A DNA stretch of 64,000 nucleotides from Verrucomicrobiota bacterium (GTDB lineage: Bacteria; Verrucomicrobiota; Verrucomicrobiia; Limisphaerales; J093). The notes under the pieces are model-generated. The model saw only the letters and a program-made list of their open reading frames with translations, made no database searches and was not told the DNA's origin. Within the stretch, counting starts at the first letter, position 1. The number at the start of each line of letters is the position of its first letter. Made by a program: the position numbers and the translations under genes. The stretch covers positions 1 through 64,000 of the forward strand of contig JAKQDD010000030.1 in NCBI GenBank assembly GCA_029556615.1. Direction: 5' to 3'. Below, one piece after another: positions 40,691 to 64,000 of this stretch.

Positions 40691-41551
40691 GTGACGCGTG
40701 CTGGGCGGGAGCGCTCGAAAGGAAGCCTCGAGGGGCGCCGAAAGAACGTGACAACGACGAATCCGAAGACATCAACGCCGGCGACCGGATCCCGCGGGGG
40801 TGGCGGAGGGGGCGGTTCACGGTTTGCCACGACCGACTGGGGGCTCTTTCGGGCGGTGCGGTCGGGCAAGAGCACGGGCAAAGCCAACATCCTCAACGAG
40901 CTCGTGAAGCGGTATTGGAGGCCGCTTTACGCTTACGTGCGCAGCAAGGGATACGAGGAGCACGAGGCGGAAGACATCGTGCAGTCGTTTTTGGTGGATT
41001 GCCTCAAACATGACCTCTTTGGCCGCGCCCGGCAGGAGCGCGGCCGGTTTCGGACGTTTCTCAGGACGTCCTGCGACCACTTCATGTCGAACTACAACCG
41101 CGCCCAGCGCGCCAAACGCCGTCGCCCGGCTGCGGGGTTCGTTTCCCTGGATGAGCCTGCCGGTCAAGGCGAAGAGCGGCGGGCCATCGAACCCGGAAGC
41201 TCGGAGACCCCGGAGCGCGTGTTCGACCGGGTCTGGGCGCGCGAGTTCCTCCATCGCATCCTGCGGATGTTCCGGGAGGAATGCGGCCAAAGCGGCAAGC
41301 GCGTTCACCACGAGATTTTCGAGGACCGGATTGTGAGGCCGGCCCTTGAAGGGGCCAGCCCCCCGTCGCTCCGCGATCTGGCGGTCCGCCACGGTATCGA
41401 CGAGAAAACGGCAGCCAATTGCCTGATCACCGCCAGGCGTGCCTTCCAGCGCCTGCTGCGAAGAGAGGTTTCCTCCTATGCGCTCTCCGACGAGGATGTC
41501 ACAGCAGAGATCAATGATCTATTCAGCCTGTTGGCGCCTGCTGGCGCGTGA
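40691..41551 (+). CDS. ECF-like sigma factor heading the chaperone/kinase locus
   Basis: A 286-residue sigma-70-like factor of the expanded type found next to Ser/Thr kinases in Planctomycetes and Verrucomicrobiota. A Gly-rich leader is followed by FATTDWGLFRAVRSG and a region 2 with YWRPLYAYVRSKGYEEHEAE and DIVQSFLVDCL. A long spacer leads to region 4, with RDLAVRHGIDEKTAANCLI as helix-turn-helix. It precedes a Ser/Thr kinase by 124 bases on the same strand and likely directs or co-regulates the downstream cluster. The start is uncertain: the GTG at 40691 has GGATGGGG four bases upstream, and a GTG at 40748 is a possible alternative. Confidence 0.83.
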   Translation: MTRAGRERSKGSLEGRRKNVTTTNPKTSTPATGSRGGGGGGGSRFATTDWGLFRAVRSGKSTGKANILNELVKRYWRPLYAYVRSKGYEEHEAEDIVQSFLVDCLKHDLFGRARQERGRFRTFLRTSCDHFMSNYNRAQRAKRRRPAAGFVSLDEPAGQGEERRAIEPGSSETPERVFDRVWAREFLHRILRMFREECGQSGKRVHHEIFEDRIVRPALEGASPPSLRDLAVRHGIDEKTAANCLITARRAFQRLLRREVSSYALSDEDVTAEINDLFSLLAPAGA

Positions 41552-41675
41552 AAGGGGCCAGGCAGCGGGCGGCATCCTCCGCGATTCACGTCGGACACAA
41601 AGCAGCCTTGGGCGCAATCCCGTGTAGATCCTCTTATCCAGGCCAGGGCCGACGAGGCCAGCGGCCGGAAACATC

Positions 41676-43328
41676 ATGAACCAACACGTGCGCCAGGCCG
41701 CAGAGAACGAGGAGCAGGTCTTCGAGTTGATCCGGTCGTTGGGCCAGGGCGGTTTCGCCCATACCTGGCTGGCGCGAGTTCTGGATGCGGAGCTGATTCA
41801 GGATTATGGCACGGAACAGGTCGCCATCAAGATACCCTCCAGTCCCAAGAACCAGCGGGTCCTGCAGAAGGAGGTCAAGAACAACATCCTGTTGCAGGAG
41901 CGCCTCAAGGCCTGCAAGTCCGACAACCTCTGCCGTTATCTCGGGATCGACCTCTTTGACAACCAGTGGGTCATGGTCATGGAGTTCGTGCCCGACGGCA
42001 GCCTGCGCAAGGTCGTCCGCGGCTTCAACCTCGGCCGGCGCAAACGTCTCGAGTGGAAAGAGGCCGTCCTGCTGGTCGAAGGGGTTCTCGAAGGCCTCGT
42101 CCTGATCCACGGAGAACACCTCTTTCACCGGGACATCAAACCGGAGAACATCCTCCTCCACGGCAGGGTCCCGAAGATCGCCGACCTCGGCATCTCGAAA
42201 TTCCTGACCACCAACCAGCGGACCTGCTCGGGTTCCTGCACGATCTTCTACGCCGCTCCCGAACTGCTGGGGAAGGAGGGATCCTCCTTCCCGGCGGACG
42301 TGTGGGCCACGGCGGTCATGCTCTACGAAATGCTGACGGGCCAACTGCCCTTTGGCGAGGACGACAGCCACCCGGCGGTCGTGATCGACGCGATCCGGGA
42401 CGAACGGCAGACCGCTGCCCGCACCGCGTGTCCGCAAGTGCCCGCCTGGCTGAGCGATCTGATCGACCTGGCCCTCGAGAAGGATGTCGCCCGACGCATC
42501 ACCGCCCGACAGATGCTCGAGACGCTGCGGGCCGCCGGCAAAACCCCCACGCAGCTTCTGGAGCGCGTCGCCGCCGTTCGGGCGGCGATCCAGAAGGAGA
42601 AGGATGAGCGCAAGGTCGAGTCGCTGATCCGGAGCCTGATCGAGGAGTTCCCCGAGGAGGCGCAGGTCTACCAGCTCCAGGGCGAGCACTTCCGGCAATG
42701 CGAGCTGCACAGCGAAGCCGTGGAAGCCTTCCGCCGTGGCCTCGTCCTCGATGACCGCAACGCGCTGCTGCATTGGGATCTCGCCCTCGAATACCAGCGG
42801 CTGCGCCGGTCCGCCGACGCCATCCGGCACCTCGAGCTGGCCAGGTCCTTCGGGCTCGACCCCGCCAAAGCCAGTGCCGCCGAGCGCCTGCTCAAGGCGC
42901 TTCGGGCCGGCCAGCGAAAGCCGGTCGCCGGCTGCCCCAAGACGGACGCGAATCAAGGCGAGTTCGAGCGCGAGCTCGCCCGGTTGCAGGACCTGCTCCA
43001 ACAGGAGCGCGGCGACGAAGCCGCGGAGAAGGCGCTCCGGGACCTGATCCGGAGGTTTCCCCGCAACCCGGTGGCCTACCAATGTCTCGGGGAGTATTAC
43101 AGCCGCTGCGGCCTGGATGTGGCGGCCTCCGCCGCCTTTCTCGAGGGGCTGGCGATCGACAAGGACAATGCGCTGCTCCATTGGGATCTCGCGCTGAGCT
43201 ACCAGCGCATGGGACGCAAGCCCCAGGCGATCGAGGAGCTGCGTCAGGCGCTGGCCCTGGACCTCAATCCCGGCCTGCGCCGACACGCCCGGACGCTGCT
43301 CAGAGCCCTGGGCGCCAGCGGTGGATGA
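41676..43328 (+). CDS. Ser/Thr protein kinase with TPR tail
   Basis: A cytoplasmic Hanks-type kinase fused to TPR repeats (550 residues, no membrane helix). The kinase half (about 16-290) has the Gly loop LGQGGFAHTWLA, Lys52 in VAIKIP, H151-R-D-I-K-P-E-N, D170-L-G instead of DFG, and APELLG. All catalytic residues are therefore present. The C-terminal half has TPR pairs such as ALLHWDLALEYQRL and its repeat ALLHWDLALSYQRM, and may recruit substrates. The stop codon overlaps the start of the PP2C gene (ATGA), and a GrpE gene follows in the same manner. The close coupling of kinase, phosphatase and chaperone cofactor suggests phospho-control of the chaperone machine encoded downstream. Confidence 0.93.
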   Translation: MNQHVRQAAENEEQVFELIRSLGQGGFAHTWLARVLDAELIQDYGTEQVAIKIPSSPKNQRVLQKEVKNNILLQERLKACKSDNLCRYLGIDLFDNQWVMVMEFVPDGSLRKVVRGFNLGRRKRLEWKEAVLLVEGVLEGLVLIHGEHLFHRDIKPENILLHGRVPKIADLGISKFLTTNQRTCSGSCTIFYAAPELLGKEGSSFPADVWATAVMLYEMLTGQLPFGEDDSHPAVVIDAIRDERQTAARTACPQVPAWLSDLIDLALEKDVARRITARQMLETLRAAGKTPTQLLERVAAVRAAIQKEKDERKVESLIRSLIEEFPEEAQVYQLQGEHFRQCELHSEAVEAFRRGLVLDDRNALLHWDLALEYQRLRRSADAIRHLELARSFGLDPAKASAAERLLKALRAGQRKPVAGCPKTDANQGEFERELARLQDLLQQERGDEAAEKALRDLIRRFPRNPVAYQCLGEYYSRCGLDVAASAAFLEGLAIDKDNALLHWDLALSYQRMGRKPQAIEELRQALALDLNPGLRRHARTLLRALGASGG

Positions 43329-44122
43329 CCATGCAACCCGCCCCGAGCCGATCGCCGCGACGGTGGACTCTCGACTGTCACACCTGCTCCGAACCCGCCC
43401 CGGAGTCCGCCGTCAACGAGGACTTCGCCGTCGCGGATCCTGTGAAAGGCGTGTTTGTGGTCGCCGACGGCATGGGCGGCCGGCCGGCCGGCCATCTCGC
43501 CAGCCGGATCGCAGCCTCCGCATTCGTGAAGAGCCTGCTCCGGGACGCAGGCGGCAGGCCTCCGCGCCGTTCCATTCTGGTGCAGGCCGTGGCGGACGCC
43601 AACACCGCCGTGCGCGCCTGCGGACGCCGGAACGCGTCCCGGACAGGCCTCGGGACGACCCTCACCGCCGTCGTCCTGCGCGGGCGGACCGGGCGGATCG
43701 TTCATCTCGGGGACAGCCGAGCCTATCTCTACCACCAGGGCCGCCTCCGCCAGTTGACCGACGATCACACCCTCGCCGAGGAACTCCTGCGCCGCCGCTG
43801 CGTCGATCGGGAGCAGTTGGCCCGGCATCCGTTCCGCCACGTCCTGTTGCGGACGATCGGCACCCACCAGGCGCCCGACCCGGACATCCTGGCCTTCTCC
43901 CTCGAGCCCGGCGACGGCTTGATCCTGACCACCGACGAGATCCCGCGGCTCCTGCCGAACGGGGAGCTCGAAGCCATCGCGCGACGCCACTGGGCTCGGG
44001 GAGCGGCAGCGGTTTGTGGCCAGCTCATGCGCCGTGCCCGACAGCGGAAACCCCAGGATGACGTCACCCTCCTGGTACTGAAAGAGGCCAACGGCGAGCA
44101 ACGGCATCGGCTTCGAGTATGA
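43325..44122 (+). CDS. PP2C-family Ser/Thr phosphatase
   Basis: A 265-residue metal-dependent phosphatase expected to reverse the upstream kinase. It has NEDFAVAD (Asp33), VVADGMGGRPAG (Asp48, Gly49), GLGTTLTAVVL, HLGDSRAYLYH, and PQDDVTLLVL near the C-terminus. The motif normally reading SDGLTD is TTDEIPRLL here: the metal Asp remains, but the following Gly is Glu. That could alter metal binding, although the rest looks active. The gene overlaps the kinase stop and the GrpE-like start by ATGA overlaps, so all three are translationally coupled. Confidence 0.9.
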   Translation: MTMQPAPSRSPRRWTLDCHTCSEPAPESAVNEDFAVADPVKGVFVVADGMGGRPAGHLASRIAASAFVKSLLRDAGGRPPRRSILVQAVADANTAVRACGRRNASRTGLGTTLTAVVLRGRTGRIVHLGDSRAYLYHQGRLRQLTDDHTLAEELLRRRCVDREQLARHPFRHVLLRTIGTHQAPDPDILAFSLEPGDGLILTTDEIPRLLPNGELEAIARRHWARGAAAVCGQLMRRARQRKPQDDVTLLVLKEANGEQRHRLRV

Positions 44123-44703
44123 AACCAACACCCGCCAACGGTTCGCAGTCCGCCCCGGCCGGTTCCCCGAGCCCGCCCGCAGAGGTCTGGACCCGCGAAC
44201 AGCAGACCCGGTGCGCCCAGGTGGTCGCCGACGATCTGGCCACCCTCATGCGGCAGTTGGCCGAGTGCCAGTCCACCCTGCGGGACAAGGAAGAGACCCA
44301 GAAGAACCAGATGCGCTCGCTGCTCATCGAGTTGCTCGAGATCTCCGATGGTTTCGAGCGGGTCTTTGCCCTCATCGAACCCCACAAAGCCGGCTGCACG
44401 CCCGAGGTCAGGGCATGGCTCAACACGTTCCGCGTCCTGCACCGGTTGCTCTGGAGAACCTTGAAAGCGCAGGGGGTGACCCGCATCCAGAACCTCGACG
44501 GCACCTATGATCCGCACTGGCATCTGCCCCAAACCAGGGTGTATGACCCCACGCAGCCGGAGGGCACGATCCTCCGCGAGGAAAAGCCCGGCTACATCTG
44601 GCAGGGCATCCTCCTGCGCAAGGCGGAAGTCGCGGTCATCACCCACGACGCCAGCCAGGCGGTCGCCGAAAGCGCGGACGATGACGCCGCAGATCAACCC
44701 TAG
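44119..44703 (+). CDS. GrpE-like nucleotide exchange factor
   Basis: A 194-residue GrpE homologue. A Pro-rich leader precedes a helical coiled region (LATLMRQLAECQSTLRDKE), helical bundle residues, and the C-terminal beta part: LKAQGVTRIQNLDGTYDPHW then GYIWQGILLRKAEVAVI, which match the GrpE pattern (short DP..H, G.....LR.A.V.V). It would release ADP from the Hsp70 encoded 260 bases downstream. Its stop codon TAG (44701-44703) is also the first three bases of the repeat element, so the repeat sits exactly at the end of the gene. Confidence 0.88.
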   Translation: MKPTPANGSQSAPAGSPSPPAEVWTREQQTRCAQVVADDLATLMRQLAECQSTLRDKEETQKNQMRSLLIELLEISDGFERVFALIEPHKAGCTPEVRAWLNTFRVLHRLLWRTLKAQGVTRIQNLDGTYDPHWHLPQTRVYDPTQPEGTILREEKPGYIWQGILLRKAEVAVITHDASQAVAESADDDAADQP

Positions 44704-44880: not shown

Positions 44881-44910
44881 GCGAGGCGCCGCCTTGAAAT
44901 TCGTCGTGAT

Positions 44911-44950
44911 AACGTCAAGTGTCGGCCCGTTCAGAATGTGACAACGTCAA
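44911..44950 (+). promoter_or_regulatory. AACGTCAA direct repeats before the Hsp70 gene
   Basis: AACGTCAA occurs at 44911-44918 and again at 44943-44950, about three helical turns apart and just before the Hsp70 ribosome-binding site. A TTGAAA at 44894-44899 could be a -35 box, but no -10 element follows at a normal distance. This may be an operator or internal promoter; the evidence is only the repeat. Confidence 0.3.
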
Positions 44951-44966
44951 TCCAGGAGAAGCACCT

Positions 44967-47366
44967 ATGGGCAAGAGCATCGGCATCGACTTAGGAACCA
45001 CCAACACCGTCGCCGCGGTTGTGGATGGCCCCCGCGTCACCGTGATCGTCAATCGGGAGAACCACCAGTCCACCCGCTCGGTCGTCGGGCTGCGCCGCCG
45101 GAAGGACAAAACCGAGATCCTGTGCGGGGATGTGGCCCTGGACAACTGGCCGATGGCGCCCGAGGACACGATCATCTCGATCAAACGGCTGATGGGCCGG
45201 GGAGCCGACGATCCCGAAATCGCGAAGGTCCGTGACACCTACCTCTATAAGATCGTCGTGCCCAAGGATGGCACTGCGGACAGCCTGCGGGTGGTCATGG
45301 GCGGTGTCCAGTACTCCCCGGTGCAGATCTCGGCCATGATCCTCAAGAAGGTCAAAGAGGACGCCGAGTTCCGCCTGAACGAAGAGGTCACCGACGCCGT
45401 GATCACGGTGCCGGCCTACTTCAGCCAGGCCCAAAAGGCGGCGACCCGCCGGGCCGGGCAGGAAGCCGGGCTGCGCGTCATCCAGATTCTCGATGAACCC
45501 ACGGCCGCGGCGATCTCCTATGGCATGGAGACCATCGAGGCCACGGAGCCGAAGTACCTTCTGGTCTACGATCTGGGCGGGGGCACGTTCGACATCTCGG
45601 TGCTCTTGTGGGACCGGAACATCTTCGTGCCGCTGACGCTCGAGGGCGACATGTGGCTCGGGGGCGACAACTTCGACCAGGCGCTGGTCGACTGCGCGGT
45701 GGGCCAGATCAAGAAGGAGCACGGGGTCGATCCCAAGCCCAACCGGCGGTTCATGGCGATGTTGAAGAAGGAGTGCCAGAAGGCCAAAGAGACCCTGAGC
45801 GGGGCCCGCTCGGCGGACATCATCGTGGCCAGTGTCCTCCAGGATGCGGCCGGCAATCCCGTCGATGTGGTGCTCGAGGTCACGCGGGAGCAGTTCGAGG
45901 AGATGATCCGTCCCCTGGTGGCCCGGACCATCGCGCTGGCGGAGAAGGCGCTCGCCGGCGCCGAGCTCGAGGTCTCCCAGGTCAGCCATGTTCTCATGGC
46001 CGGCAACTCGACGTGCGTCCCCCTCGTTCAGCAGGAGGTGGAGAAGAAGTTCGGCGCGGACAAGGTGCTGCGCAAGGTGCACCCCAAACAGAGCGTGGCC
46101 ACCGGGGCGGCAAAGCTCGCGGCGGTGCTTTACGGCAAACTCGTCTGCCAGGCCCCCCGGCAGGAGGATCCCCAGCAGGAATGCGGGTACCGGAACGAGC
46201 GGGACGCAGTCACCTGCGCCCGCTGCGGCGCTCCCCTGGCGGCGCAGGAGGGGCCGGTGCCCACGGATGAGCTGATCCCTCCCGGCGGCATCGCCGCCTG
46301 TTCCTACGGCATTCAAACCGCGGGCGACAAGTACGCGGTCTTCATCAAGAAAAACGACCCCTATCCGACCCCCGAGGAGAACCGCCAGCCGCAAACCTTC
46401 TACACCCGCATGCCCGACCAGCGGATCATCATGATCCCGGTCTACGGAGGCGAGACCATGGACCGGGCCAGCGCCAACGAAAAGCAGGGCGCCGCCGTCG
46501 CCATCCTCCCGGCGCGCCTGCCGAAGGGGACGGCAATCCGCATCCGGGTCTGGTTGGACAACGACTGCGTGTTCGTCGTCAGCGCGCACCTCGAGGACGG
46601 CACCGACCTGAAACCCTGGATCATGAAGGGCGAGGCGGACGCCAAGGCCCTCGAGGGACTCCAGCGCGTGGACCAGGAGTTCGAGAAGGTCGAATCCGAG
46701 CTGACAGCCGACGAGCATGCGGAGGTCGATCGCGTCCGGAACCAGGCCTTCGACGACATGCGGAGCCAGCGGTTCGACGACGCCATGCAGCGCGCCCAGG
46801 ACTTCAAGAAGAAGCTCGAGGAGCGAAAGAAAGGCGACGACCCGTTGACGCGGAAGGCGGAAGGCCTGGTTCGGTACACGCGTTTTGTGCTCGACCGGTA
46901 CGGGTGGCTCCTGGACCCGCCCAAGGCGGTTCAACTCAATCAGCTGGCCGAGCAAATCGAGGAAGCGGTTCGCTCGGGCGACCGGCAGCGACTCGAGGAG
47001 AAGGCGAAGGAACTGGACAAGGCAACTGACGAATTGCCGCAGGCGGCCCGGGCGTTCATCGGGATGTTCCTCGCCATCCACAACCGGATCCAGCCCGTGG
47101 ATCCCGTCCAGGCCGCCAACCTGCTCGAGGAGCTCGCGGAGGCGGAGCAGGCCCTCAAGGCCCGGGATCCGAATGCGCGCCAGAAGATCCAACAGGTGTC
47201 GGCGAAGATCGCCGTGACCATTGATCAGATCGGCACCGGGGATCCCGACAAGTCGAAGCGGCTCGTCTGCTCGTGCGGCACCGAGATCCCGGCGGGTGCG
47301 GACAAGTGCCCGAAGTGCGGGCTGGCGGCTTGGCTGGTCGAAGACCGGTCCCGCCGGGGCCTTTGA
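44967..47366 (+). CDS. Hsp70 chaperone with zinc-ribbon insertions
   Basis: A 799-residue DnaK-type chaperone with an intact ATPase: GIDLGTTNT (residues 6-14), D202-L-G-G-G-T-F-D and AGNSTCVPLVQ. Between the ATPase and peptide-binding parts is a zinc-ribbon-like insert, ECGYRNERDAVTCARCGAPL, with Cys406, Cys417 and Cys420; the usual first Cys is Gln, so only three remain. The substrate-binding beta domain follows (IPVYGGETMDRASANEK), then a helical lid and a complete C-terminal zinc ribbon (Cys768, Cys770, Cys781, Cys784). Ordinary DnaK has about 640 residues and no zinc motifs. The ATG at 44967 has AGGAGA at 44954-44959. The C-terminal ribbon replaces the usual EEVD-like tail, suggesting a dedicated partner. 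Confidence 0.93.
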   Translation: MGKSIGIDLGTTNTVAAVVDGPRVTVIVNRENHQSTRSVVGLRRRKDKTEILCGDVALDNWPMAPEDTIISIKRLMGRGADDPEIAKVRDTYLYKIVVPKDGTADSLRVVMGGVQYSPVQISAMILKKVKEDAEFRLNEEVTDAVITVPAYFSQAQKAATRRAGQEAGLRVIQILDEPTAAAISYGMETIEATEPKYLLVYDLGGGTFDISVLLWDRNIFVPLTLEGDMWLGGDNFDQALVDCAVGQIKKEHGVDPKPNRRFMAMLKKECQKAKETLSGARSADIIVASVLQDAAGNPVDVVLEVTREQFEEMIRPLVARTIALAEKALAGAELEVSQVSHVLMAGNSTCVPLVQQEVEKKFGADKVLRKVHPKQSVATGAAKLAAVLYGKLVCQAPRQEDPQQECGYRNERDAVTCARCGAPLAAQEGPVPTDELIPPGGIAACSYGIQTAGDKYAVFIKKNDPYPTPEENRQPQTFYTRMPDQRIIMIPVYGGETMDRASANEKQGAAVAILPARLPKGTAIRIRVWLDNDCVFVVSAHLEDGTDLKPWIMKGEADAKALEGLQRVDQEFEKVESELTADEHAEVDRVRNQAFDDMRSQRFDDAMQRAQDFKKKLEERKKGDDPLTRKAEGLVRYTRFVLDRYGWLLDPPKAVQLNQLAEQIEEAVRSGDRQRLEEKAKELDKATDELPQAARAFIGMFLAIHNRIQPVDPVQAANLLEELAEAEQALKARDPNARQKIQQVSAKIAVTIDQIGTGDPDKSKRLVCSCGTEIPAGADKCPKCGLAAWLVEDRSRRGL

Positions 47367-47382: not shown

Positions 47383-49218
47383 ATGAGCGCGCAACCTAAT
47401 CCATCGCCGCGGGTCGTCGGCGTCGACTTCGGCGGCGATGCCCTGAGGCTCGCGTCCTGGGTAGACGGAGAGCCCCGGCTGTTGCCCTCTCGGCCGGTCG
47501 CCGAACCCCTCCACCGGGAAATCCGCGTCAACGGCGCGGCGCCGGAGTGCCGGATCCTATCCCTCAAGCGGTTGCTGGATCATGACGAAACCCTCATCCT
47601 GCCCAGGGTGGGGGGGGCGAGCATCCGCTCCGTGGAATACCTGACCGAGCTGTTCCGCCTCCTGCGGACCAACGCGACCCTCTTCCCGGCGTCCACGCCG
47701 CTGAACACCGTCGGCGCCGTTCCCCCCTGCTTCTCCCAGCGCCAGCGCTCGACCTTCCGCGAAGCCATCGAGAAGGCGGGCTTCGAGCGGGTCCGGCTGG
47801 TGGACGACACGATGGCCGCAGTTCTCGCCAACCAGGAACGACTCCGGGGCAAGGAGAGCGTGCTGGTCTACGCCTGGGGAGCAAGCACGTTCTCCGCAGC
47901 CCTCTACCGCCCCGCCGGAACCGCCTTCCGGGTCATCGCCCAGGACGGCGATCGGAATCTGGGCGGTGATGACTGGAATGGGGTGATCTTGAATGGCTGC
48001 CTGAAAGCCCTGGGCCGGCCCGTGCGGTTCCCGTCCAAGGACGACGCGGCGCTGCTGCGCGAGCTGGAACGGATCAAACGCGTCTTGTCCGATGGCCAGG
48101 AAGCCCAGTTCTCGACCGTCGTGCTCGTCGGCGGACGACCGGAAGCCCAGCGAATCCCGCCGCAACTGGCCGTGGACGCCAGCGCCTTCCGGGAGGCCGT
48201 GCTGCGCATGACTCAGCGCACCCTCGAGTTGTCGGAGAAGGTCCTGCGGGAGGGCAAATGCCCCGAGCCGGAAGTGGTCCTGCTTCTGGGCGGAGTGACG
48301 TCGGCGCCTCTCGTGACCCGGGCGATCGAGCAGAGGTTCCCGGGGCGAATCCTCGCCACCATCCCCGACGCCGTCGCCGTCGGAGCCGCCATCTACGGAA
48401 CCTTGCTCCCGTCGGCCGAGTGGGAAGCCTCCGGCCGCAGGGCTGAACAGGACAAACAGCGGGGCCTCCCGCCGGCGGCCAAGCCGCCAGCCGCCACTCC
48501 GGACCCGGACCCGTCTCCGGCCCCGCGCCTGCGCGCACCGGACCGGGCGCCGGAGACTCCGGCCCGGCCTGCCGTCGAAGGGGGTTGGGCTGCCCATTTC
48601 GTCCCGCTGCTGAACGAGGCGGAGCGGCTCGAGAAGGAAGACCGCCTGGACGAATCGGTGGCCAAGCTCGAAGAACTGCACGAGAGGATGGGCAAGTTCT
48701 TCTTCTGGGTGTTCGACAAGGCGGCCACAACCCAAATGGCCCAGGGTCACAAGGAGCGAGCCTACGCCCTCCTGCAAAGGGCCAACCGGTTCGATCCCTC
48801 AAACGAACGAGTCGCTCACAGCCTCGCGGAGTTCTACGGAGGACGCGCCGTCGAGCTCTACAAGAACCGCCGCTTCGAGTCGGCCCTCGAGTCCTGCCGC
48901 GCGGCGCTGGCAGTGATCGAAGCGCTGCCGGACGCCGAGCGGCGACAGGGGCGATTCCTCGCTCATTATCTCCGGCTCCAGGCCGAGATCGAGCTGGCGT
49001 TGAGCCGAACGAGCGCGGCGGAAGCCAACCTCGAACGAGCGGTAAGGCTGAACCCCGAGGAACCGGCCCTCAAACAGCGATTGCAGGAAATCCAGCCCTT
49101 GCTGAAGCGGGCGGCTTCCGAGGTGCGCCGGGTCTTCGGCCCCATGTCGGGCGAAGACCGAAACCGGCTTTGTCCTTGTGGCAGCGGCAAGAAGTACAAG
49201 AAATGTTGCGGACGATGA
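47383..49218 (+). CDS. Degenerate Hsp70-like ATPase-fold protein with TPR and SEC-C motif
   Basis: A 611-residue protein built on an Hsp70 nucleotide-binding fold (about 1-350). Phosphate loop 1 reads VVGVDFGGDALRL rather than GIDLGTTNS, and the second loop is VYAWGASTFSAAL (residues 163-172) rather than DLGGGTFD, so ATP turnover is doubtful. FRVIAQDGDRNLGGDDWNG still resembles the family. A Pro-rich linker joins TPR-like helices, and the chain ends in a perfect SEC-C zinc motif, CPCGSGKKYKKCCGR (Cys597, 599, 608, 609), best known from the SecA tail. Start ATG 47383 has AAGGGGGA upstream, 16 bases after the active Hsp70. It may regulate or scaffold the active chaperone. Confidence 0.85.
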   Translation: MSAQPNPSPRVVGVDFGGDALRLASWVDGEPRLLPSRPVAEPLHREIRVNGAAPECRILSLKRLLDHDETLILPRVGGASIRSVEYLTELFRLLRTNATLFPASTPLNTVGAVPPCFSQRQRSTFREAIEKAGFERVRLVDDTMAAVLANQERLRGKESVLVYAWGASTFSAALYRPAGTAFRVIAQDGDRNLGGDDWNGVILNGCLKALGRPVRFPSKDDAALLRELERIKRVLSDGQEAQFSTVVLVGGRPEAQRIPPQLAVDASAFREAVLRMTQRTLELSEKVLREGKCPEPEVVLLLGGVTSAPLVTRAIEQRFPGRILATIPDAVAVGAAIYGTLLPSAEWEASGRRAEQDKQRGLPPAAKPPAATPDPDPSPAPRLRAPDRAPETPARPAVEGGWAAHFVPLLNEAERLEKEDRLDESVAKLEELHERMGKFFFWVFDKAATTQMAQGHKERAYALLQRANRFDPSNERVAHSLAEFYGGRAVELYKNRRFESALESCRAALAVIEALPDAERRQGRFLAHYLRLQAEIELALSRTSAAEANLERAVRLNPEEPALKQRLQEIQPLLKRAASEVRRVFGPMSGEDRNRLCPCGSGKKYKKCCGR

Positions 49219-56630: not shown

Positions 56631-59231
56631 ATGGCGAAAATATTCCTGAAGTTGGGGATCGATCACGGAACCAGCAACTCGAGCATCTGCGTCATGGAAC
56701 CGACGGGCCCGCGGGTCATCCGGGTGGATGGCGCGGACGAGATCATGCCCTCGGTCGTGTACATGGACCGCAGCGGCCGCGTCATTGTGGGGGCTGCGGC
56801 TCGCAAGGCGATGCTCTACAACCCCCCGCAGGAGGGGGACGGCCACGCGGGCTACAAAATCAAGATTGGCCAGGACGACCGCTACGATTTCCGCGCCGCC
56901 GGGAAATCCCTGTCCGCGCCGGAGTTGGGGGGGCTGGTGATGGGGTACCTCCTGCGGGCGTATCGGGACGTGGCCCACGAGGAAATCCCGGGTGCCGTGA
57001 TCACCGTGCCCGCCAAGTTCGAGCACAACGCCTGCGAGGGCACGCGGGAGGCCGCCCGTCATGCAGGCCTGAAGTTCTTCCCCCAGATCCAGGAGCCCAT
57101 CGCCGCGTCGATGGCGTACGGATTCACCGCCACCGATCGCAGGGCCCAGTGGATGGTCTTTGACCTGGGAGGTGGGACGCTGGACGTCTCGCTCGTCTAC
57201 GTCCGCGGGGGACGAATGGACGTGCCGGAGGAAGGCCATGCGGGCGACAACCGGCTGGGGGGACGCAAGTTCGACCGGGAGATCCTGGCCTACGTGCTCG
57301 GACAACTGAAGAAACAATACGCCCTCGCCACGTTCTCCGAGGGCAATCCCGCCTACACCCAGGCCTGGGGACGCCTCATGATGGCGTGCGAGCAGGCCAA
57401 AATCCAGCTCTCGACCCGATCCCAGGCGGTGGTCGAAGTGGACGGCGTGCTCTGCCAGGATGACCAGGGAAAGGACGTGCTGGTCGAGATCCCCATCGAG
57501 CGCAGCCAGTACGTGGCGATGATCGCGCCCGAAATCCAGAAGGCGATTCACCTGTGCCGGACCCTGCTCGAAGGCAACCGGCTGACACCCAAGGATCTGG
57601 ATCGGATCATCCTGATCGGCGGGCCCACCAAGACCCCCTATGTGCAAACCGCGCTGGCCGAGGGCCTCGGGCTCGAGGTCAAACCCACCATCGACCCGAT
57701 GACCGCCGTGGCTGTCGGAGCCGCCTTGCACGCAGCCACCGTCGAGCTTCCCGAGGAGCATCACCCCTCCGTTCGTGTCACCGAGACCATCGCCGCCTCC
57801 TTCGTCTCCGTCCGCCTCGAGTACGAGCGCACCCCGCAGGCCAATCCCTGCTTCATCGCCGGAAAGGTCGAGGGCGAAATCGACCCCGCGTCGACCAGGG
57901 TCGAGATCCGGAGAAGCGACGGCTGGTCCTCAGGCGATATTCCCGTGGCCGAGGACGGGACCTTCACCTGCGACGTCGCCCTGATTGACGAGGGCACCGC
58001 GAAACTCTCGAGTTTTGAAACCCGCGTTTTCGGGAAAGGGGGCGAGCTGCTCGCATCGTCGGCCGAGCCGCAGATTCTCTATCCCTACCGCGGGGTCGAG
58101 GGTCGCCTGGCCAATTCGCTGCTGATCGCCACCGAGGGGAACCGCACGGTCACCCTGGTCAAAAAGGGATCCAGCCTGCCGGGCAAGGGCTCGGAACGGT
58201 TCGTCACCACCAAGCCGCTGCAGAAAGGCTCCGGCGATGACGTCCTGAACATCGCCGTCCTCGAAGGTGTCACCAACTTGTTCGGCGAGGAGAACTCAAG
58301 CGCGGACCTGAACGTCCACATCGGATCGCTCGTGATCAAGGGGGACAACGAACGGCTGACCCATGACCTGCCCGCCGGCAGCCGGCTCCGCATCACCGTG
58401 CACCAGGACGAGTCCCGCGCGGTCCACTGCGTCGCTTACGTCGATCTCCTCGACGACGAATTCGAGGGCGAGATCACCAGGGAAGGGTTCGAGATCGACT
58501 CCAAAAGCGTCGCGGCCCGCTTCGCCACCGCGACCGCCGCGCTCGAGGATGCCAGGGCCCTCGACCGCGAATACCCCACGCCAGGGGTCGACCAAAGACT
58601 CCGGATCATCGACGAACTCAAGGTTGTCGAGGAAATCGCCAAGGAAACGGAACGGGCCCAGCAGGGGGAGAAAGACGCCCTGTATCGAGCCTACCGGCGT
58701 GTCCTCGAACTCGCCGGCGCGCTGCAGATCATCGCCGAAGCCCAAACCGAAGCTCATGGCCGACGCCACATCGGACGCCTGCGACAGGCGGTCCGCGACA
58801 AGGAGGCGCAAGACCTCGACGCCGTCGAGGCGGAGTTCGACCGTGCCGTCCGCGAGAAGGACACCAAGGCCTTGGCGAGAACGCGTGAGGCGCTGACCGA
58901 GCTTGATCACCGCGTCCGGGCCCGCCCCTACTTCAGCGTCTGCCTCGCGCTGGCGGCCGTGGCCGGCAAACGTGGCAACCAACGCCAGATCGCGGTCGTG
59001 AAGGAGGCCGACGCCCTCATCGGACGCGTCGACGCCAAGGGCGGTGTGGGCGCCCTCACAGCCTCCGATTTGTCCGAATTGGAAGCCATGCATCGGAAGC
59101 TGCTCGACGTGCTGCCCGAGCTGCCGAAGTGGATCGAGGAGTTCCTGAAGACCATCCCGGACGGCACCCCGCCCGGAACCACCAAGAACCCCTACGCGCA
59201 CGTCAAGAAAGAGACGGCCAGCAACTACTGA
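56631..59231 (+). CDS. Second Hsp70 chaperone with inserted beta domain
   Basis: An 866-residue Hsp70 distinct from the one at 44967. The ATPase motifs are GIDHGTSNSS (D11; His replaces Leu), FDLGGGTLDVS (D178) and LIGGPTKTPYVQ, so hydrolysis is plausible. After the ATPase comes an extra beta-rich region of roughly 130 residues (about 385-520; PCFIAGKVEGEIDPASTRVE, DGWSSGDIPVAEDGTFTCDV) not found in DnaK. A recognisable peptide-binding part (TNLFGEENSSADLNVHIGSL) and long lid helices follow. No zinc ribbon is present. Start ATG 56631 is preceded by GGAGGAGGAGG. It has its own GrpE-like gene immediately upstream, so the locus encodes two separate exchange-factor/chaperone pairs. Confidence 0.9.
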   Translation: MAKIFLKLGIDHGTSNSSICVMEPTGPRVIRVDGADEIMPSVVYMDRSGRVIVGAAARKAMLYNPPQEGDGHAGYKIKIGQDDRYDFRAAGKSLSAPELGGLVMGYLLRAYRDVAHEEIPGAVITVPAKFEHNACEGTREAARHAGLKFFPQIQEPIAASMAYGFTATDRRAQWMVFDLGGGTLDVSLVYVRGGRMDVPEEGHAGDNRLGGRKFDREILAYVLGQLKKQYALATFSEGNPAYTQAWGRLMMACEQAKIQLSTRSQAVVEVDGVLCQDDQGKDVLVEIPIERSQYVAMIAPEIQKAIHLCRTLLEGNRLTPKDLDRIILIGGPTKTPYVQTALAEGLGLEVKPTIDPMTAVAVGAALHAATVELPEEHHPSVRVTETIAASFVSVRLEYERTPQANPCFIAGKVEGEIDPASTRVEIRRSDGWSSGDIPVAEDGTFTCDVALIDEGTAKLSSFETRVFGKGGELLASSAEPQILYPYRGVEGRLANSLLIATEGNRTVTLVKKGSSLPGKGSERFVTTKPLQKGSGDDVLNIAVLEGVTNLFGEENSSADLNVHIGSLVIKGDNERLTHDLPAGSRLRITVHQDESRAVHCVAYVDLLDDEFEGEITREGFEIDSKSVAARFATATAALEDARALDREYPTPGVDQRLRIIDELKVVEEIAKETERAQQGEKDALYRAYRRVLELAGALQIIAEAQTEAHGRRHIGRLRQAVRDKEAQDLDAVEAEFDRAVREKDTKALARTREALTELDHRVRARPYFSVCLALAAVAGKRGNQRQIAVVKEADALIGRVDAKGGVGALTASDLSELEAMHRKLLDVLPELPKWIEEFLKTIPDGTPPGTTKNPYAHVKKETASNY

Positions 59232-59259
59232 CAAGGCATCAGGAGAGCAGGCGCTCGCC

Positions 59260-60363
59260 ATGAGCACGTCACAGCAACATCGTCTGAAAGCGGCCCGGTG
59301 GGCCGCAGCCGTGGGCCGCTACTCCCTCGCCTCCGCCTTCCTTGATGCCATCACCGATCCCGCCCTCGGGTCGGAAACGCAGGTCCTGCGCGGGCACATC
59401 CACGCGCAGCAGGGGCGGTACGCGGAGGCCTTGGGGCTCTGGGAGCAGGCCCTGGCTCGATCGCCCGGCGACGCCCGGCTCGAGAAGGCGATCCGCAGGT
59501 TGCGCGCCATGCAGGAGACCGGCTTCACACCGCCCTCGACACGGTTCCGACTGGCCGCGCTCTGCGGGCTCGCCCTGTGCAGCTTGCTGCTCCTGGCGGC
59601 TGCGTTTGCCCTGGGGCGCTGGACGACCCGGGCCGGCGCCGCCAAACCCCCGGGACTCACCCTCGCCGCCGCCGACACCCTCGAACCGCCGACGCAGGCC
59701 CTGCTTCAGCAGCAGACGCTCGCCATCTCCGGCCAGGTGGATCTGGTCCAGAACCGCCTCGCCGAAGGCCACGCCGCGCTGCGGGCTGGCCTCGATGCGC
59801 TGGCGGCGGAGCTGCCCAAGGCCCGGGCGGTGGCGGACCTGGCCGTCGCGGTGCAGAACGTCCAAGGCGAGATCCGCACTCTCGACCGCCGCATGAACGA
59901 TGCGACCGCCGGCCTCTCGAATGCCCTGCAATCGATCCGACTCCAGCAGGAACAACAACTCCGCGACGACACGGCTCGCGGACAGGCGATCCAGGCCGCG
60001 CGCGGCGATCTGGCGAGGCTCCGGGACGCCATGGCCGCAGAGACCGCGCGGTCCGATCAGCGGCTGCATGCCATGATCGACCTGTTGCGCCCCGTGAACC
60101 TCGACCGATTGGCCCGCGAGATCCAGGACGCCGAAGCGGCGATCAGCGTTCTCCGGACCGAAGCGGCACGGCCGCCATCCGACGGCCCCCACGGGCTCAT
60201 CAGCCGCCGCGCCGCCCTGCGGAGCGAGCTTCGGGAGATCGAGAATCGCCTCGCCTCCTTGCGCGAAGCGTGGGAACAACACGTGGTCCCCTGGCTGAAG
60301 GCCAGGGCGGCGCTATCAGGCTCCGGAGAGCCCGCGGCTCGGCCGGACAAAGCGCTCCACTGA
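59260..60363 (+). CDS. TPR/membrane/coiled-coil protein, paralogue of the 52000 gene
   Basis: A 367-residue protein with an N-terminal TPR pair (YAEALGLWEQALARSPGDAR), one transmembrane helix (LAALCGLALCSLLLLAAAFALG) and a long C-terminal coiled coil rich in Ala/Arg/Glu. The layout equals that of the product of 52000-53229, except that the Cys knuckle is missing. Each paralogue sits beside one of the two Hsp70 modules. It begins 28 bases after the Hsp70 stop and is followed by the Clp-like genes after 25 bases. Confidence 0.75.
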   Translation: MSTSQQHRLKAARWAAAVGRYSLASAFLDAITDPALGSETQVLRGHIHAQQGRYAEALGLWEQALARSPGDARLEKAIRRLRAMQETGFTPPSTRFRLAALCGLALCSLLLLAAAFALGRWTTRAGAAKPPGLTLAAADTLEPPTQALLQQQTLAISGQVDLVQNRLAEGHAALRAGLDALAAELPKARAVADLAVAVQNVQGEIRTLDRRMNDATAGLSNALQSIRLQQEQQLRDDTARGQAIQAARGDLARLRDAMAAETARSDQRLHAMIDLLRPVNLDRLAREIQDAEAAISVLRTEAARPPSDGPHGLISRRAALRSELREIENRLASLREAWEQHVVPWLKARAALSGSGEPAARPDKALH

Positions 60364-60388
60364 GGAACCGTGATCGAGACGGCAGCGT

Positions 60389-61423
60389 ATGAAAGTCTCA
60401 GCCACCATCGAGTTGATCTGGCAGTTGGCCTGCCGCGAGGCGATCGCCGCCGAGTTCAAGGAGGTCGCGCCCGAGCACTTCCTCATGGCCCTGTTGAAGC
60501 TGGCGGAAACGCCGGTGTCGGATCTCGAGCAGCTGGGCGCGGGCATGGAGGCCGCACGCGTGTTGAGCGCGGACGCCGCAGCGTTGCGCGAGGAGCTGGG
60601 CAGCCGGGGCATCAACTCGGGGACCCTGCGTCGCGAGTTGCGGACCCTTCTCGGGCGGGGCAGCACGCCCTACCAGGGAGGACAAATCCACCGCGCTCCC
60701 GCCTCCCGGGATTACTTCGACAAGGCCGCCAAACTGGCCGGAGACGCCGGCAGCGACGTGCTGATGGGCCGGCACCTGCTGCTGTCGCTCCTCCAGGAGC
60801 CGACGCCCCCCATGGCCCAGGTGCTGGCGCGCGGCGGCCAGGCCGGCGAAGCGGCGCCGGCAGCCCCCCTCGTCGTCCTCTATGAGCACGGCAAAGACCT
60901 CAACCGGGCCGTCGCGGAACAGAAGCTCGCCCAGGACAAGGAACGCCTCGCCGAAGCCCGGGTGCTGCTCCGCGTTTGGGAGCAGAGTCAGCGCCACAGC
61001 GCGTTCCTCGCCAGTGACCAGCCGGAGGCGGTGCGAAAGACCGTGTTCACGGCGGTCCGCTGTCTCTCCGCAGGCGACACCCCCGCGGGCCTCAGAGGCA
61101 AGCGGATCATCGATCTCTCGGAAGTTGGCGGGGGCACCACCCGGGCCAAGGCCACCGTCGAGCTGTTGGAACGTCTGCTCGACCAGGCCGCGGCGGTGCC
61201 GGGCGTCGTCCTCTTCCTGCCCGCCGTGGGGTCCAAGGGGGCCAAGATGCCCGCTTGGACGGAGATGCTCAAGAGAACGGCGGCCCAGGGCAAGGTGCAG
61301 TTCGTGGCCCGGCTCGCTCCCGAATTGCGGACCGCCGTCGAGAAAGACCCGGCGTGGAAGCGCATTGCCCAGGTGATCAGTCTCGCCCGGGAAAAGGCCA
61401 CCGAGATCCCGTCCGAGCTGTAA
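60389..61423 (+). CDS. Clp N-domain protein with inactive AAA module
   Basis: A 344-residue protein that matches the first half of ClpA/B/C unfoldases. Two Clp-N repeats are visible (LACREAIAAEFKEVAPEHFL, AKLAGDAGSDVLMGRHLLLS). The hinge LYEHGKDLNRAV corresponds to the usual EYGRDLTAMA. The D1 part follows: AGDTPAGLRGKRIIDLSEVG aligns with the D1 segment GDVPEGLKGKRVLALD. Where Walker A is expected only LASDQPEAVRKT is found, and Walker B is VVLFLPAVGS instead of VILFIDELHT. The D1 ATPase is therefore dead. The matching D2 lies in the next gene, 12 bases away, so this is a split Clp unfoldase. Confidence 0.83.
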   Translation: MKVSATIELIWQLACREAIAAEFKEVAPEHFLMALLKLAETPVSDLEQLGAGMEAARVLSADAAALREELGSRGINSGTLRRELRTLLGRGSTPYQGGQIHRAPASRDYFDKAAKLAGDAGSDVLMGRHLLLSLLQEPTPPMAQVLARGGQAGEAAPAAPLVVLYEHGKDLNRAVAEQKLAQDKERLAEARVLLRVWEQSQRHSAFLASDQPEAVRKTVFTAVRCLSAGDTPAGLRGKRIIDLSEVGGGTTRAKATVELLERLLDQAAAVPGVVLFLPAVGSKGAKMPAWTEMLKRTAAQGKVQFVARLAPELRTAVEKDPAWKRIAQVISLAREKATEIPSEL

Positions 61424-61434
61424 AGAACTCCCGT

Positions 61435-64000
61435 ATGTTCACCGAACGTGCCCAGACGATCATCGACGCGGCCAAGGATTACGCCTTCTCCAGTGGCGAC
61501 CAGCAACTCACGCTCGCAGCGTTTGCGCCGGCGGCGGTGCGGCAGCCCGAGGCGACCATCATGCTGGCCGAGTTCCTGATGCTGACCCCCGACCAGTTGC
61601 GAGAGAAAGTTCCCCCCACGCCGCCGCCGGCGGCTTGTCCGGGCAAACTCCCGCTCTCGGAGCCGGTTCGGGCGATGCTCGAGGCGGCCAGGGAACTGGC
61701 CCAGGAAGTCCCGGATCGAAGCCAGCCCGGCCTGATTGACCTGCAGCACCTGCTGATGGCGCTGGCGCTCTCCCGGGAGTTCTGCGCCCTGCTGGGAGTC
61801 GCCCCCATGCCCCGCGAGGACGCCGTGCGGGCGCTGGCGGATTCCTACCAGCGGGAGGGAGGCACTCCCGCGATCGGCGACCTGATGGAACGGCTCCGGC
61901 GGATGCGCCTCGAGTTGCTCAACAGGGTGTTCGGGCAGGATCACGCGATCGAGGCGTTCGTCGAGGGTGTGTTCAACGCGGAAATCGTCGCAACCGCCGA
62001 CGTGCGACGGCGCGAGCCCCGCGCGGTGTTTGTCTTCGCCGGACCTCCGGGGGTGGGCAAGACCTACCTCGCCGAATCGGCGGCCACCTGGCTCGATCGC
62101 CCCTTCCGCCGCTTCGACATGACCACCTACTCCGATCATCAGGCAAGCAACGCGCTGGTGGGCTGGGCCAAGAGCTACCACGCTGCGCACCCGGGCCTGC
62201 TCACGGAGTTCGTCGAGAAGAACCCCAACGCCATCCTGCTCTTCGACGAGATCGAGAAGGCGCACCTCAACACCGTGCTGCTCTTCCTCCAGATCCTGGA
62301 TGCGGGGGTTCTCGAGGACAAGTACCACGAGCGGAATGTGAGCTTCCGGGACACGACCCTCATCTTCACCACCAATGCCGGCCGAAAACTCTACGACCGG
62401 CCCAACGAAAGCGGTGTCCACGCCGCCCATGCCGCCTTCCACCGGAAGACGATTCTCGATGCCCTCGAAAACGAGAAGGACCCGCGAACCGGGCAAGCCT
62501 GCTTCCCGCCCGCCATCTGCTCCCGGCTGGCCACCGGCTACCCGGTGCTGTTCAATCACCTGCGGGTCAACGAGCTCCAACGGGTAGCCCAGGCGGAGCT
62601 GGCCCACGTGGCCCACCTCCTCGAAAGACAGTACTACAAGCGAATCCTCATCAGCGACCTCGTCGCTGCCGCCCTCGTGTTGCGCGAAGGAGCCAAAGTC
62701 GACGCCCGCACGCTCCGATCCCAGGCCGAGACCTTCGTCAAGACCGAGTTCTTCAAGTTCTGCCAGTTGTTCAAGACCGACCGGATCGAGGAGGTCTTCC
62801 AGCAGGTGGACAGCGTCAGCCTCGAACTGGAACAGGAGCTCTCCGAGTGCGATCCCGAGGTCCGGGAGTTGTTCCAGGCCTCGGAAAAGCCCCGGGTGCT
62901 GCTGGTGTCGGAACCCAGCATGGGCGAGCTGTACCGGGAATGCCTCAAAGAGGTCGAGTGGCGCCTGGCCGCGAACGCCGAAGACGCCCTCGAGATCCTC
63001 GCCAACGAAGAAGTGGACCTGGCGTTGGTCGACCTGTGGCTGGGACGCACGCCGGGCAGCCAGACGGGCAGCGTTCAGCAGTTCGATCACATCCCGCTCG
63101 CCCACCGGGGCCTGGACCAGGGCCAGGAAATCCTCCGCCGGGTTCGCGAACGCCTTCCGGACCTGCCCGTGTATCTGCTCTCGCTCGCCGAAGGGGATGA
63201 GGCCGGCCCCGTCCGGGGCACGATCGATGACGAGCTGTTCATGGCCTGCGTCCGCGGCGGGGGAGCCCGGGGCATGCTCGTGAGCCGGTTCCTGGACAAC
63301 ATGGTCCGGGACTGGACCCAGCACCGCGACGCCTTCAAAGCCGACCTGCTCGCCACATGCCAGAGGCTCTATCGGGAGCGCGCCGCCGAACGCCTGGGCC
63401 AGGAACGCAAGGTCCTCTCCTTTGATACCGAACCCAAATTGCTCGCCTCCAAACGGCAGATCGTCATCCGGTTGCGCAACCTGCGCCTGGCGCGCGCCTT
63501 GGCCGCCGCCGACGCGGGGGAAGTGGTCGAGGATGTCGAGCGCCCGCGCACGCGGTTCGAGGATGTCATCGGAGCCGATGGCGCCAAGGAGGAGCTCCGG
63601 TTCTTCATCGATTTCCTCAAGCGCCCGCGCCGATTCGCCGCCCTGGGGCTCAAGCCGCCCAAAGGAGTCCTGCTCCACGGTCCCCCGGGCACCGGCAAGA
63701 CCATGCTCGCCCGCGCCATGGCCGGCGAGTCCGACGTCGCCTTCCTGCCGGTCTCGGCCAGCAATTTCGTCACCATCTGGCAGGGCAGCGGCCCGCAAAA
63801 CGTCCGCGACCTCTTCGCCCGCGCCCGCCGCTACGCGCCATCGATCATCTTCATCGACGAAATCGATGTCATCGGCAAGGCCCGCACCGGTTCCCCCGGC
63901 GCCGGCCAGGCCGAGGAGAACACCCTCAACGCGCTCCTGGTGGAAATGGACGGTTTCACCGGCCCTTCGCCGGACCGCCCCGTCTTCGTCCTCGCAGCCA
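61435..64000 (+). CDS. Giant fusion of Clp-D2-like AAA, receiver-like and FtsH-like AAA domains (partial)
   Basis: At least 855 codons, open at the window edge. The N-terminus resembles another degenerate Clp-N domain. A ClpB-D2-like AAA follows, with Walker A GPPGVGKT (203-210), Walker B LLFDEIEKAH (Asp271-Glu272) and the sensor-1 region TLIFTTNAG (Asn314). A receiver-like domain comes next (about 482-600; RVLLVSEPSMGELYREC, Asp533 in ALVDLW). An FtsH-like AAA begins FEDVIGADGAKEELRFFIDF and has GPPGTGKT (749-756) and FIDEID (Asp808). The FtsH pore phrase FVEMFVG reads FVTIWQG. Both AAA cores look active. Any FtsH-type zinc protease (HExxH) would lie beyond the window. There is no N-terminal membrane helix. 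Confidence 0.9.
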   Translation, partial: MFTERAQTIIDAAKDYAFSSGDQQLTLAAFAPAAVRQPEATIMLAEFLMLTPDQLREKVPPTPPPAACPGKLPLSEPVRAMLEAARELAQEVPDRSQPGLIDLQHLLMALALSREFCALLGVAPMPREDAVRALADSYQREGGTPAIGDLMERLRRMRLELLNRVFGQDHAIEAFVEGVFNAEIVATADVRRREPRAVFVFAGPPGVGKTYLAESAATWLDRPFRRFDMTTYSDHQASNALVGWAKSYHAAHPGLLTEFVEKNPNAILLFDEIEKAHLNTVLLFLQILDAGVLEDKYHERNVSFRDTTLIFTTNAGRKLYDRPNESGVHAAHAAFHRKTILDALENEKDPRTGQACFPPAICSRLATGYPVLFNHLRVNELQRVAQAELAHVAHLLERQYYKRILISDLVAAALVLREGAKVDARTLRSQAETFVKTEFFKFCQLFKTDRIEEVFQQVDSVSLELEQELSECDPEVRELFQASEKPRVLLVSEPSMGELYRECLKEVEWRLAANAEDALEILANEEVDLALVDLWLGRTPGSQTGSVQQFDHIPLAHRGLDQGQEILRRVRERLPDLPVYLLSLAEGDEAGPVRGTIDDELFMACVRGGGARGMLVSRFLDNMVRDWTQHRDAFKADLLATCQRLYRERAAERLGQERKVLSFDTEPKLLASKRQIVIRLRNLRLARALAAADAGEVVEDVERPRTRFEDVIGADGAKEELRFFIDFLKRPRRFAALGLKPPKGVLLHGPPGTGKTMLARAMAGESDVAFLPVSASNFVTIWQGSGPQNVRDLFARARRYAPSIIFIDEIDVIGKARTGSPGAGQAEENTLNALLVEMDGFTGPSPDRPVFVLAA

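Follow-up and report, generated by a model that had tools for sequence, protein, structure and literature searches.

Which machine, if any, is encoded by a run of fourteen bacterial genes for a kinase, a phosphatase, several Hsp70s and parts of Clp and FtsH ATPases? The question is raised by a locus at the end of a 64,000-nucleotide stretch of DNA, here called the window, from a Verrucomicrobiota bacterium (assembly GCA_029556615.1, contig JAKQDD010000030.1, positions 1-64000). An earlier note, made from the letters of the window alone, had taken this run for a membrane-attached protein remodelling or degradation machine switched by phosphorylation. We followed it up by computation and also read the contig beyond the window edge, where the last gene was found to run on (61435-64929) with an intact M41 protease site. 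We find the locus to be real and its modular organisation conserved; as far as our searches reach, it has not been described. We lean, on balance, towards reading it from its sequences as an ATP-dependent protease that has two motors, Hsp70 front ends and control by Ser/Thr phosphorylation; the phosphorylation, the membrane anchoring and the substrates are what we infer.

Results

The last gene joins Clp and FtsH domains

The protein encoded by the last gene has 1164 residues, in which Pfam finds AAA_2, AAA and Peptidase_M41 together with a weak receiver match that stays below cut-off (19.6 of 30.2 bits). Its D2 matches AAA_2 at 3.7e-32 and the NCBIfam ClpA family at 2e-42 over residues 151-400, below the equivalog cut-off; against the FtsH equivalog TIGR01241 the protein scores 351.7 bits, under the cut-off of 600 bits. 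The earlier note had seen here a fusion of Clp D2, receiver and FtsH-like AAA, and these domains are present, but the protein holds more than was claimed, namely a Clp-N-like domain and the intact M41 protease.

For alignment and tree the fusion was compared with 31 of the 39 related loci described below, leaving out L057, L059, L068, L075, L078, L082, L084 and L087, whose frames are short or broken (L and G numbers are our handles for loci and genomes). Fifteen catalytic or zinc-site positions are invariant in 32/32 aligned fusions: Walker A, Walker B and one arginine in D2; Walker A, Walker B and two arginines in the FtsH part; HExxH; and an Asp that we take to be the third zinc ligand of the M41 site. 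Clp ATPases dock ClpP through a loop with an IGF/IGL tripeptide, and in the interval from sensor 1 to the arginine finger 0/32 fusions have an IGF-like tripeptide. An FtsH-type N-terminal membrane anchor was not found in the window protein either, the sole borderline segment (1.61, at residue 106) lying within the Clp-N-like helices. Judged by its residues, the fusion is a complete protease that does without FtsH's own membrane anchor. An AlphaFold2 model built from the 32 aligned sequences has a mean pLDDT of 82 and a pTM of 0.53; searched with Foldseek, its first rows are FtsH chains at 27-38% identity, and the plastid Ycf2-FtsHi motor is among the matches.

Directly upstream lies a gene for a separate Clp subunit, ClpN, which matches the N-domain and D1 of ClpC/ClpB in PDB. 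The Walker A motif of its D1 is lost in 5/5 homologues, so that the dead-D1 Clp protein of the earlier note is borne out. ClpN and the fusion lie side by side, a pairing that recurs, and several further lineages have a ClpN-like stretch joined directly to D2.

Fourteen genes on one strand

The genes of the locus, with the evidence for each, are the following (coordinates of the contig, all on the + strand):

40691..41551, +: ECF-like sigma factor (Sigma70_r2 below cut-off, 22.2 of 24 bits; TIGR02937 E 5e-8, below cut-off)
41676..43328, +: Ser/Thr kinase with C-terminal TPRs (Pkinase 9e-44; VAIK, HRDIKPEN and DLG present)
43325..44122, +: PP2C phosphatase (PP2C_2 1.5e-13; NF033484 1.2e-48, below cut-off; DGMGG, GDSR, DDxT)
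44119..44703, +: GrpE1, nucleotide exchange factor, module A (PF01025 6.4e-19)
44967..47366, +: HspA, Hsp70 with intact ATPase motifs and a zinc ribbon, module A (PF00012 2e-113; PF13240)
47383..49218, +: HspC, degenerate Hsp70 with TPR-like repeats and a SEC-C tail, module A (PF00012 1.6e-25; SEC-C)
49359..51962, +: J1, zinc ribbon, J-like stretch without HPD and long C-terminal part, module A (zinc ribbon 1.3e-5, below cut-off)
52000..53229, +: T1, TPR-like, single transmembrane (TM) segment, long C-terminal region read as coiled coil, module A (TPRs below cut-off)
53366..55903, +: J2, conserved N-terminal domain, J-likeness uncertain, module B (N-terminal homologues in G011, G046, L053, G344)
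56057..56629, +: GrpE2-like protein, module B (PDB GrpE match)
56631..59231, +: HspB, Hsp70 with intact ATPase motifs, module B (PF00012 1.4e-65 over residues 8-370)
59260..60363, +: T2, TPR, single TM segment, long C-terminal region read as coiled coil, module B (TPR_2 above cut-off)
60389..61423, +: ClpN, Clp N-domain and dead D1 subunit (ClpC/ClpB chains from 2e-8)
61435..64929, + (window part 61435..64000): Clp-N-like / Clp D2 / receiver-like / FtsH AAA / M41 fusion (Pfam, NCBIfam)

The fourteen co-directional genes of the earlier note are confirmed over 40691-64929, and so are its short gaps between most genes: with the chosen starts the gaps are 124, -4, -4, 263, 16, 140, 37, 136, 153, 1, 28, 25 and 11 bases, so that 8/13 junctions measure 37 bases or less and the other five 124-263. 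Pfam matches above cut-off comprise Pkinase and TPR, PP2C, GrpE, HSP70 in three proteins, SEC-C, AAA_2, AAA, Peptidase_M41 and one TPR family in T2; those below cut-off are Sigma70_r2, the receiver, the TPRs of T1, the zinc ribbon of J1 and Clp_N of the ClpN gene; J2 and GrpE2 have no Pfam match. Kinase and PP2C hold up by Pfam and by their catalytic motifs, with the PP2C frame corrected to 43325-44122. The sigma factor, similar to both families listed, reaches the cut-off of neither; homologues of it lie near system genes in G248, G004, G011, L053 and G345.

On the 5' side the locus is bordered by one 2703-residue open frame on the - strand (32354-40465), and on the 3' side the next genes, told by codon-position bias, lie on the - strand from 65039. 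Further upstream in the window, one - strand run (25155-30764) encodes a hybrid histidine kinase, a receiver protein and an adenylate/guanylate cyclase with receiver.

Front ends differ between genomes

The closest parallel in gene order is G345, the genome of L058, labelled Myxococcota, which has 9/14 window genes in window order and is without J2, GrpE2, HspB and T2. Identities to the window are 41% for the kinase (residues 16-416), 43% for PP2C, 39% for GrpE1, 49% for HspA, 36% for HspC, 35% for J1 and 47% for the fusion; T1 and ClpN match in part only (34 residues, E 2e-4; 111 residues, 34%, E 4e-9). There the sigma gene follows the fusion, and further small frames stand between ClpN and the fusion.

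Two genomes of the window's own family differ from it: G004 has sigma factor, FHA-type kinase, PP2C, a 1189-residue kinase, ClpN and fusion within 11.5 kb, and G011 has sigma factor, kinase, J2, GrpE2-like gene, HspB, T and ClpN before the contig ends. In L053 a set of sigma factor, kinase, J2, GrpE2-like gene and HspB is divergent from ClpN-fusion, and G046 has J2, GrpE2-like gene and HspB together on a contig of 10.5 kb; J2 homologues were found in 3/58 nearest genomes, own included. Two HspB-like genes precede the fusion in L070, and in L073 it is preceded by genes for an Hsp70, a short protein weakly matching TPR, a protein of 967 residues without a match, and a kinase. Read through these front-end versions, the window looks like module A (GrpE1, HspA, HspC, J1, T1) and module B (J2, GrpE2, HspB, T2) set on one shared ClpN-fusion end.

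A version built on kinases recurs as FHA-type kinase, PP2C, large kinase and fusion in L063, L065, L066, L071 and L076; the FHA domain was seen by Pfam in L071 only and elsewhere, G004 included, by similarity to the L071 protein. Two extra genes, one of them a second kinase, stand before the fusion in L074, and in L062 kinase and PP2C come after it. The large kinases carry extra domains: WD40 in L063, L065 and L060 (there with MORN), TPR in L057 and L071, and a BrxC/D-like ATPase in L074, where this kinase-ATPase fusion (L074:2448-5504, Pfam 4.6e-40) lies with two genes between kinase and protease fusion. L071 belongs to Lachnospiraceae bacterium NE2001, which is probably an isolate.

The fusion is sparse and crosses phyla

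One scan of the species-genome collection with two peptide patterns from the D2-end/receiver/linker region gave at least 39 fusion loci in about twelve phyla, a lower bound since only these two patterns were scanned; three of the 39 (L052, L062, L072) are the same contigs as G248, G295 and G344. By record titles and tree labels the loci belong to Lentisphaerota, Planctomycetota, Acidobacteriota, Armatimonadota, Myxococcota, Thermodesulfobacteriota, Nitrospirota, Bacillota, Bacteroidota, Chloroflexota, Synergistota and Deferribacterota; since most come from metagenome bins, some labels may be in error. A 288-genome sample of the window's phylum, with two candidates scored per genome, contained at least four long fusion matches, own included, the other matches listed being plain FtsH. 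Plasmids and phages searched by tblastn gave no match, and neither did a pattern scan of viral contigs.

A tree built on the FtsH part places the 32 fusions on one side of a branch with 100/100 support, apart from 26 plain FtsH sequences. The window fusion groups with Acidobacteriota and Planctomycetota bins, which suggests that the fusion spread by horizontal transfer. In G353, the genome of L060 and a Nitrospirota bin, the fusion is the sole M41 match found; plain FtsH may be missing or unassembled there.

Enrichment of kinase, PP2C or Hsp70 genes around the fusion

Neighbours were counted by phmmer with seeds from the window and L071, scoring a match anywhere in the flank on either strand; flanks extend up to 10 kb per side and differ in length, several contigs ending near the fusion, and such seeding may miss distant kinases. 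A kinase, PP2C or Hsp70 was present in the flanks of 18/39 fusions as against 0/15 plain-FtsH stretches of the window's phylum (one-sided Fisher p 6e-4). L071 is positive by construction, its proteins having served as seeds, and without it 17/38 fusions remain positive (p 9e-4). By partner, the 39 loci have a kinase in 15 cases, PP2C in 7, Hsp70 in 5, a sigma type in 3 and GrpE in 1. A second control took plain-FtsH stretches from fusion-bearing genomes, of which 1/19 was positive (one Hsp70; kinase 0, PP2C 0). It covers the 14 genomes of fourteen positive loci, 13 of which contribute, G353 being without a plain FtsH match, and omits one M41 match in G351 (a frame of 191 residues); as its genomes were chosen from the 18 positive loci, the 14/14 positive fusions there follow from the choice and only the control rate of 1/19 is informative. 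Among loci with at least 5 kb upstream, 16/27 are positive, and 16/20 once the distal group is excluded, an exclusion chosen after the data were seen.

Two further neighbourhoods deserve mention. A Ter-type ATP-grasp gene lies two genes upstream of the fusion in L064 (L064:6908-7975), with similar-looking genes by eye at L068:3921-8930, and a link of the fusion to Ter stress pathways is possible. Small WXG100-like proteins, again recognised by eye, are encoded upstream of the L068 fusion (L068:955-1929), a hint of a type VII secretion neighbourhood.

Chaperones and cofactors of the two modules

HspA and HspB keep their ATPase motifs as in the genome's own DnaK, by motif alignment, and HspB has a C-terminal half beyond its Pfam match. 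HspC lacks the DnaK-type residues in two ATPase motifs, the myxococcal homologue in L058 shows the same losses, and with its SEC-C match it answers to the degenerate Hsp70 with a SEC-C tail in the earlier note. Two GrpE-like/Hsp70 pairs had also been claimed; GrpE1 with HspA, as well as HspB, are recognised by Pfam, but GrpE2 is not. GrpE2 matches the PDB GrpE 4ani at E 0.0022 and compares poorly in hhalign (E 0.0094, probability 4), and related genes sit between J2 and HspB in G011, G046 and L053; together, the profile match, the poor hhalign match and this position point weakly to a GrpE.

HPD was found in neither J1 nor J2, as had been said of these two J-like proteins. Against a two-sequence DnaJ profile J1 is DnaJ-like over 23 columns (probability 84, E 7.6e-6), but the likeness of J2 is weak (probability 20, E 0.0011, 28 columns; best PDB DnaJ E 0.98). 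T1 and T2 are paralogous over their C-terminal ~88 columns (E 2e-9) and have one strong TM candidate each, at residue 129 and residue 100, in agreement with the TPR/membrane paralogues of the earlier note. J2, GrpE2, ClpN and the fusion contain candidates of lower score (1.61-1.68), which were not taken as TM segments. The proposed membrane attachment would come through T1 and T2 and not through the FtsH part itself, which has no anchor. An OmpA-like tail suspected by eye in the T1 homologue of L058 gave no Pfam match.

Discussion

A proposed protease with exchangeable inputs

Under the phosphorylation-controlled protease that we favour, HspA with GrpE1 and J1, and HspB with GrpE2 and J2, would bind selected substrates and pass them to the Clp N-domains; D2 would unfold these and feed the FtsH ring in cis, which would stand in for ClpP. 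T1 and T2 would act as membrane tethers for the chaperones. Either delivery or the protease would be switched by the kinase, with PP2C working against it and the receiver-like domain relaying the state, and the sigma factor would control expression of the locus. In other bacteria the Hsp70 front end would be replaced by kinases, PP2C and a kinase with a WD40, TPR, MORN or ATPase domain as input sensor. A bolder form of this idea, which we put forward tentatively and as possible rather than probable, is that the fusion, alongside the separate dead-D1 Clp subunit, defines a new class of soluble, single-chain double-motor proteases in which Clp D2 feeds FtsH/M41 in cis and whose input end swaps sensor kinases and complete Hsp70 modules, that Ser/Thr phosphorylation directly gates the hand-over from Hsp70 to protease, and that in the window one such machine bears two Hsp70 modules. 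The earlier note had treated the genes as one set; nine genes in order in another phylum and the enrichment of partners agree with this, but the set is not indivisible, its front ends being exchangeable.

Several observations weigh against the protease reading. Hsp70 is near only 5/39 fusions, and a supported clade (100/100; L080, L081, L083, L085, L086, L088, L089, L090) has no member with kinase, PP2C or Hsp70 in the flanks searched; the same is true of L064, L068, L082 and L087, all with long flanks. Among the 58 nearest genomes the full-length fusion occurs in two (own and G004). Neither G046 nor G011, which have the J2-GrpE2-HspB trio, yielded a full-length fusion, so that module B is not bound to the protease in every genome. 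The receiver Asp is kept in 26/32 fusions and replaced in 6/32 (Glu 4, Pro 1, Lys 1). The best 50 Foldseek rows for the fusion are all on the FtsH side, which leaves the Clp part without fold confirmation, and for J2 the Foldseek top 50 holds no J-domain, so its identity as a J-protein is unsupported by fold.

The kinase-free clade has neighbours of its own. In L080, L085 and L089 a protein of 414-428 residues is encoded upstream and one of 788-883 residues downstream of the fusion, and three neighbour proteins of L080 have no Pfam match. We read this clade as having a different partner set for what would be the same protease.

Comparison with described systems

The fusion resembles FtsH, m-AAA and i-AAA proteases in its AAA domain with Walker A/B and its M41 peptidase (HExxH, third-ligand Asp), and its best fold matches are FtsH; it differs in having Clp-N-like, Clp D2 and receiver-like domains in place of N-terminal membrane segments. 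The pore motif of FtsH is MFVG, and the window protein has IWQG instead. With ClpA, ClpC and ClpB the locus shares the N-domain, D1 and D2 folds, here split over two genes, D2 scoring best with ClpA and the separate subunit with ClpC/ClpB; unlike in these, D1 is dead and sits in a separate gene, there is no ClpP-docking tripeptide, and an FtsH peptidase is attached in cis. DnaK, DnaJ and GrpE work with the ClpB disaggregase, and the window likewise combines Hsp70, exchange factor, J-like protein and Clp motor, but with two Hsp70 modules, a degenerate Hsp70, no HPD, an attached protease and a kinase with phosphatase.

The literature searched, whose coverage is thin for subscription journals and which holds no bioRxiv preprints, yielded no paper that names this locus or a fusion of Clp with FtsH; within it, the statement that no named system has this gene set is sustained. 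Two systems of Kaur et al. 2020 (PMC7159879), from the part of that paper available to us, come near: an FtsH ternary system with a MoxR-vWA core and a two-AAA FtsH-type protein, one copy of which is inactive, and a GAP1-N2 GTPase system with HSP70, GrpE, a second HSP70 and DnaJ around a GTPase core. They share with our locus chaperone sets, kinase/PP2C neighbours or a two-AAA FtsH-type protein, and a patchy distribution; they differ in that the MoxR-vWA and GTPase cores are not found here and that the available part describes no Clp-FtsH fusion. As identities they were rejected, the MoxR-vWA and TRAFAC GTPase cores being absent among the listed family matches. A kinase-HSP70 fusion noted in Pirellula in 2005 (PMC1262709), as far as the accessible part of the source goes, brings a Ser/Thr kinase together with Hsp70 in a planctomycete, but as a single fused protein without protease or cofactors.

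Other explanations

The locus might instead serve conflict or self-limitation, along the lines of the NTP-dependent systems described by Kaur et al. 2020: kinases acting as sensors would set off a protease, which would either halt the cell or degrade a protein of the invader. This would fit the scattered occurrence of the fusion across phyla and the disagreement between its tree and taxonomy, as well as a constant core with variable sensors (WD40, MORN, TPR, BrxC/D-like ATPase) fused to kinases; the Ter-type ATP-grasp gene (PF15632) near the L064 fusion also speaks for it. DUF4062 is seen in STAND-type signalling proteins, and the start of a DUF4062 gene lies directly downstream of the L087 fusion (L087:11818-12036). 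The best PADLOC matches, too, are the anti-phage kinases MAD6 and PD-T4-6 and the AAA protein IetA, but these are kinase- or AAA-wide, the NCBIfam models giving 99.6 of 460 bits for MAD6 and 118 of 510 bits for IteA. No vWA, GTPase or toxin family is among the listed Pfam matches of the 14 products (for the fusion, 25 of 39 families listed); MoxR-type AAA_3 appears only below cut-off, at 22.5 of 27 bits on the D2 P-loop; and the searched plasmid, phage and viral-contig collections hold no match. We consider this explanation unlikely. A known anti-phage system was also tried as an identity and rejected, PADLOC giving kinase-, AAA-, SEC-C- and coiled-coil-type matches only (7/14 window products and 3 L071 products).

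Ordinary stress proteostasis, with extra copies of Hsp70, GrpE and Clp/FtsH induced by the sigma factor and a kinase and phosphatase acting only on transcription, seems to us improbable. The genome does have full-length DnaK, plain FtsH and DnaJ besides, and a sigma gene heads the locus; yet the degenerate Hsp70, dead D1 and fused protease recur in other phyla and so are not simple duplicates, and kinases and PP2C, mostly without Hsp70, are the commonest partners of the fusion. We give little credence to a remodelling or assembly machine whose protease would cleave one or few clients, for example in envelope or supercomplex assembly: the membrane segments of T1 and T2 and the plastid Ycf2-FtsHi motor among the fold matches speak for it, but FtsHi proteins are inactive and here the M41 site is invariant in 32/32. 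That unrelated genes are neighbours by chance is what the gaps of 124-263 bases at five junctions might suggest; it is set against gene order kept in another phylum and enrichment over two control sets, by which we reject a chance cluster and regard the odds for it as negligible.

Implications

The few known bacterial ATP-dependent proteases include Lon, FtsH, ClpXP/AP/CP and HslUV. If the phosphorylation-controlled protease is what this locus encodes, an AAA+ protease under phospho-control, whose single chain combines two unfolding motors with a peptidase, would join these few, and it would offer a bacterial case of Hsp70 handing clients straight to a protease under kinase control. The recurring degenerate Hsp70 and the HPD-less J-like proteins would have roles testable in a defined set and, with NE2001 carrying the kinase version, bench work may be possible.

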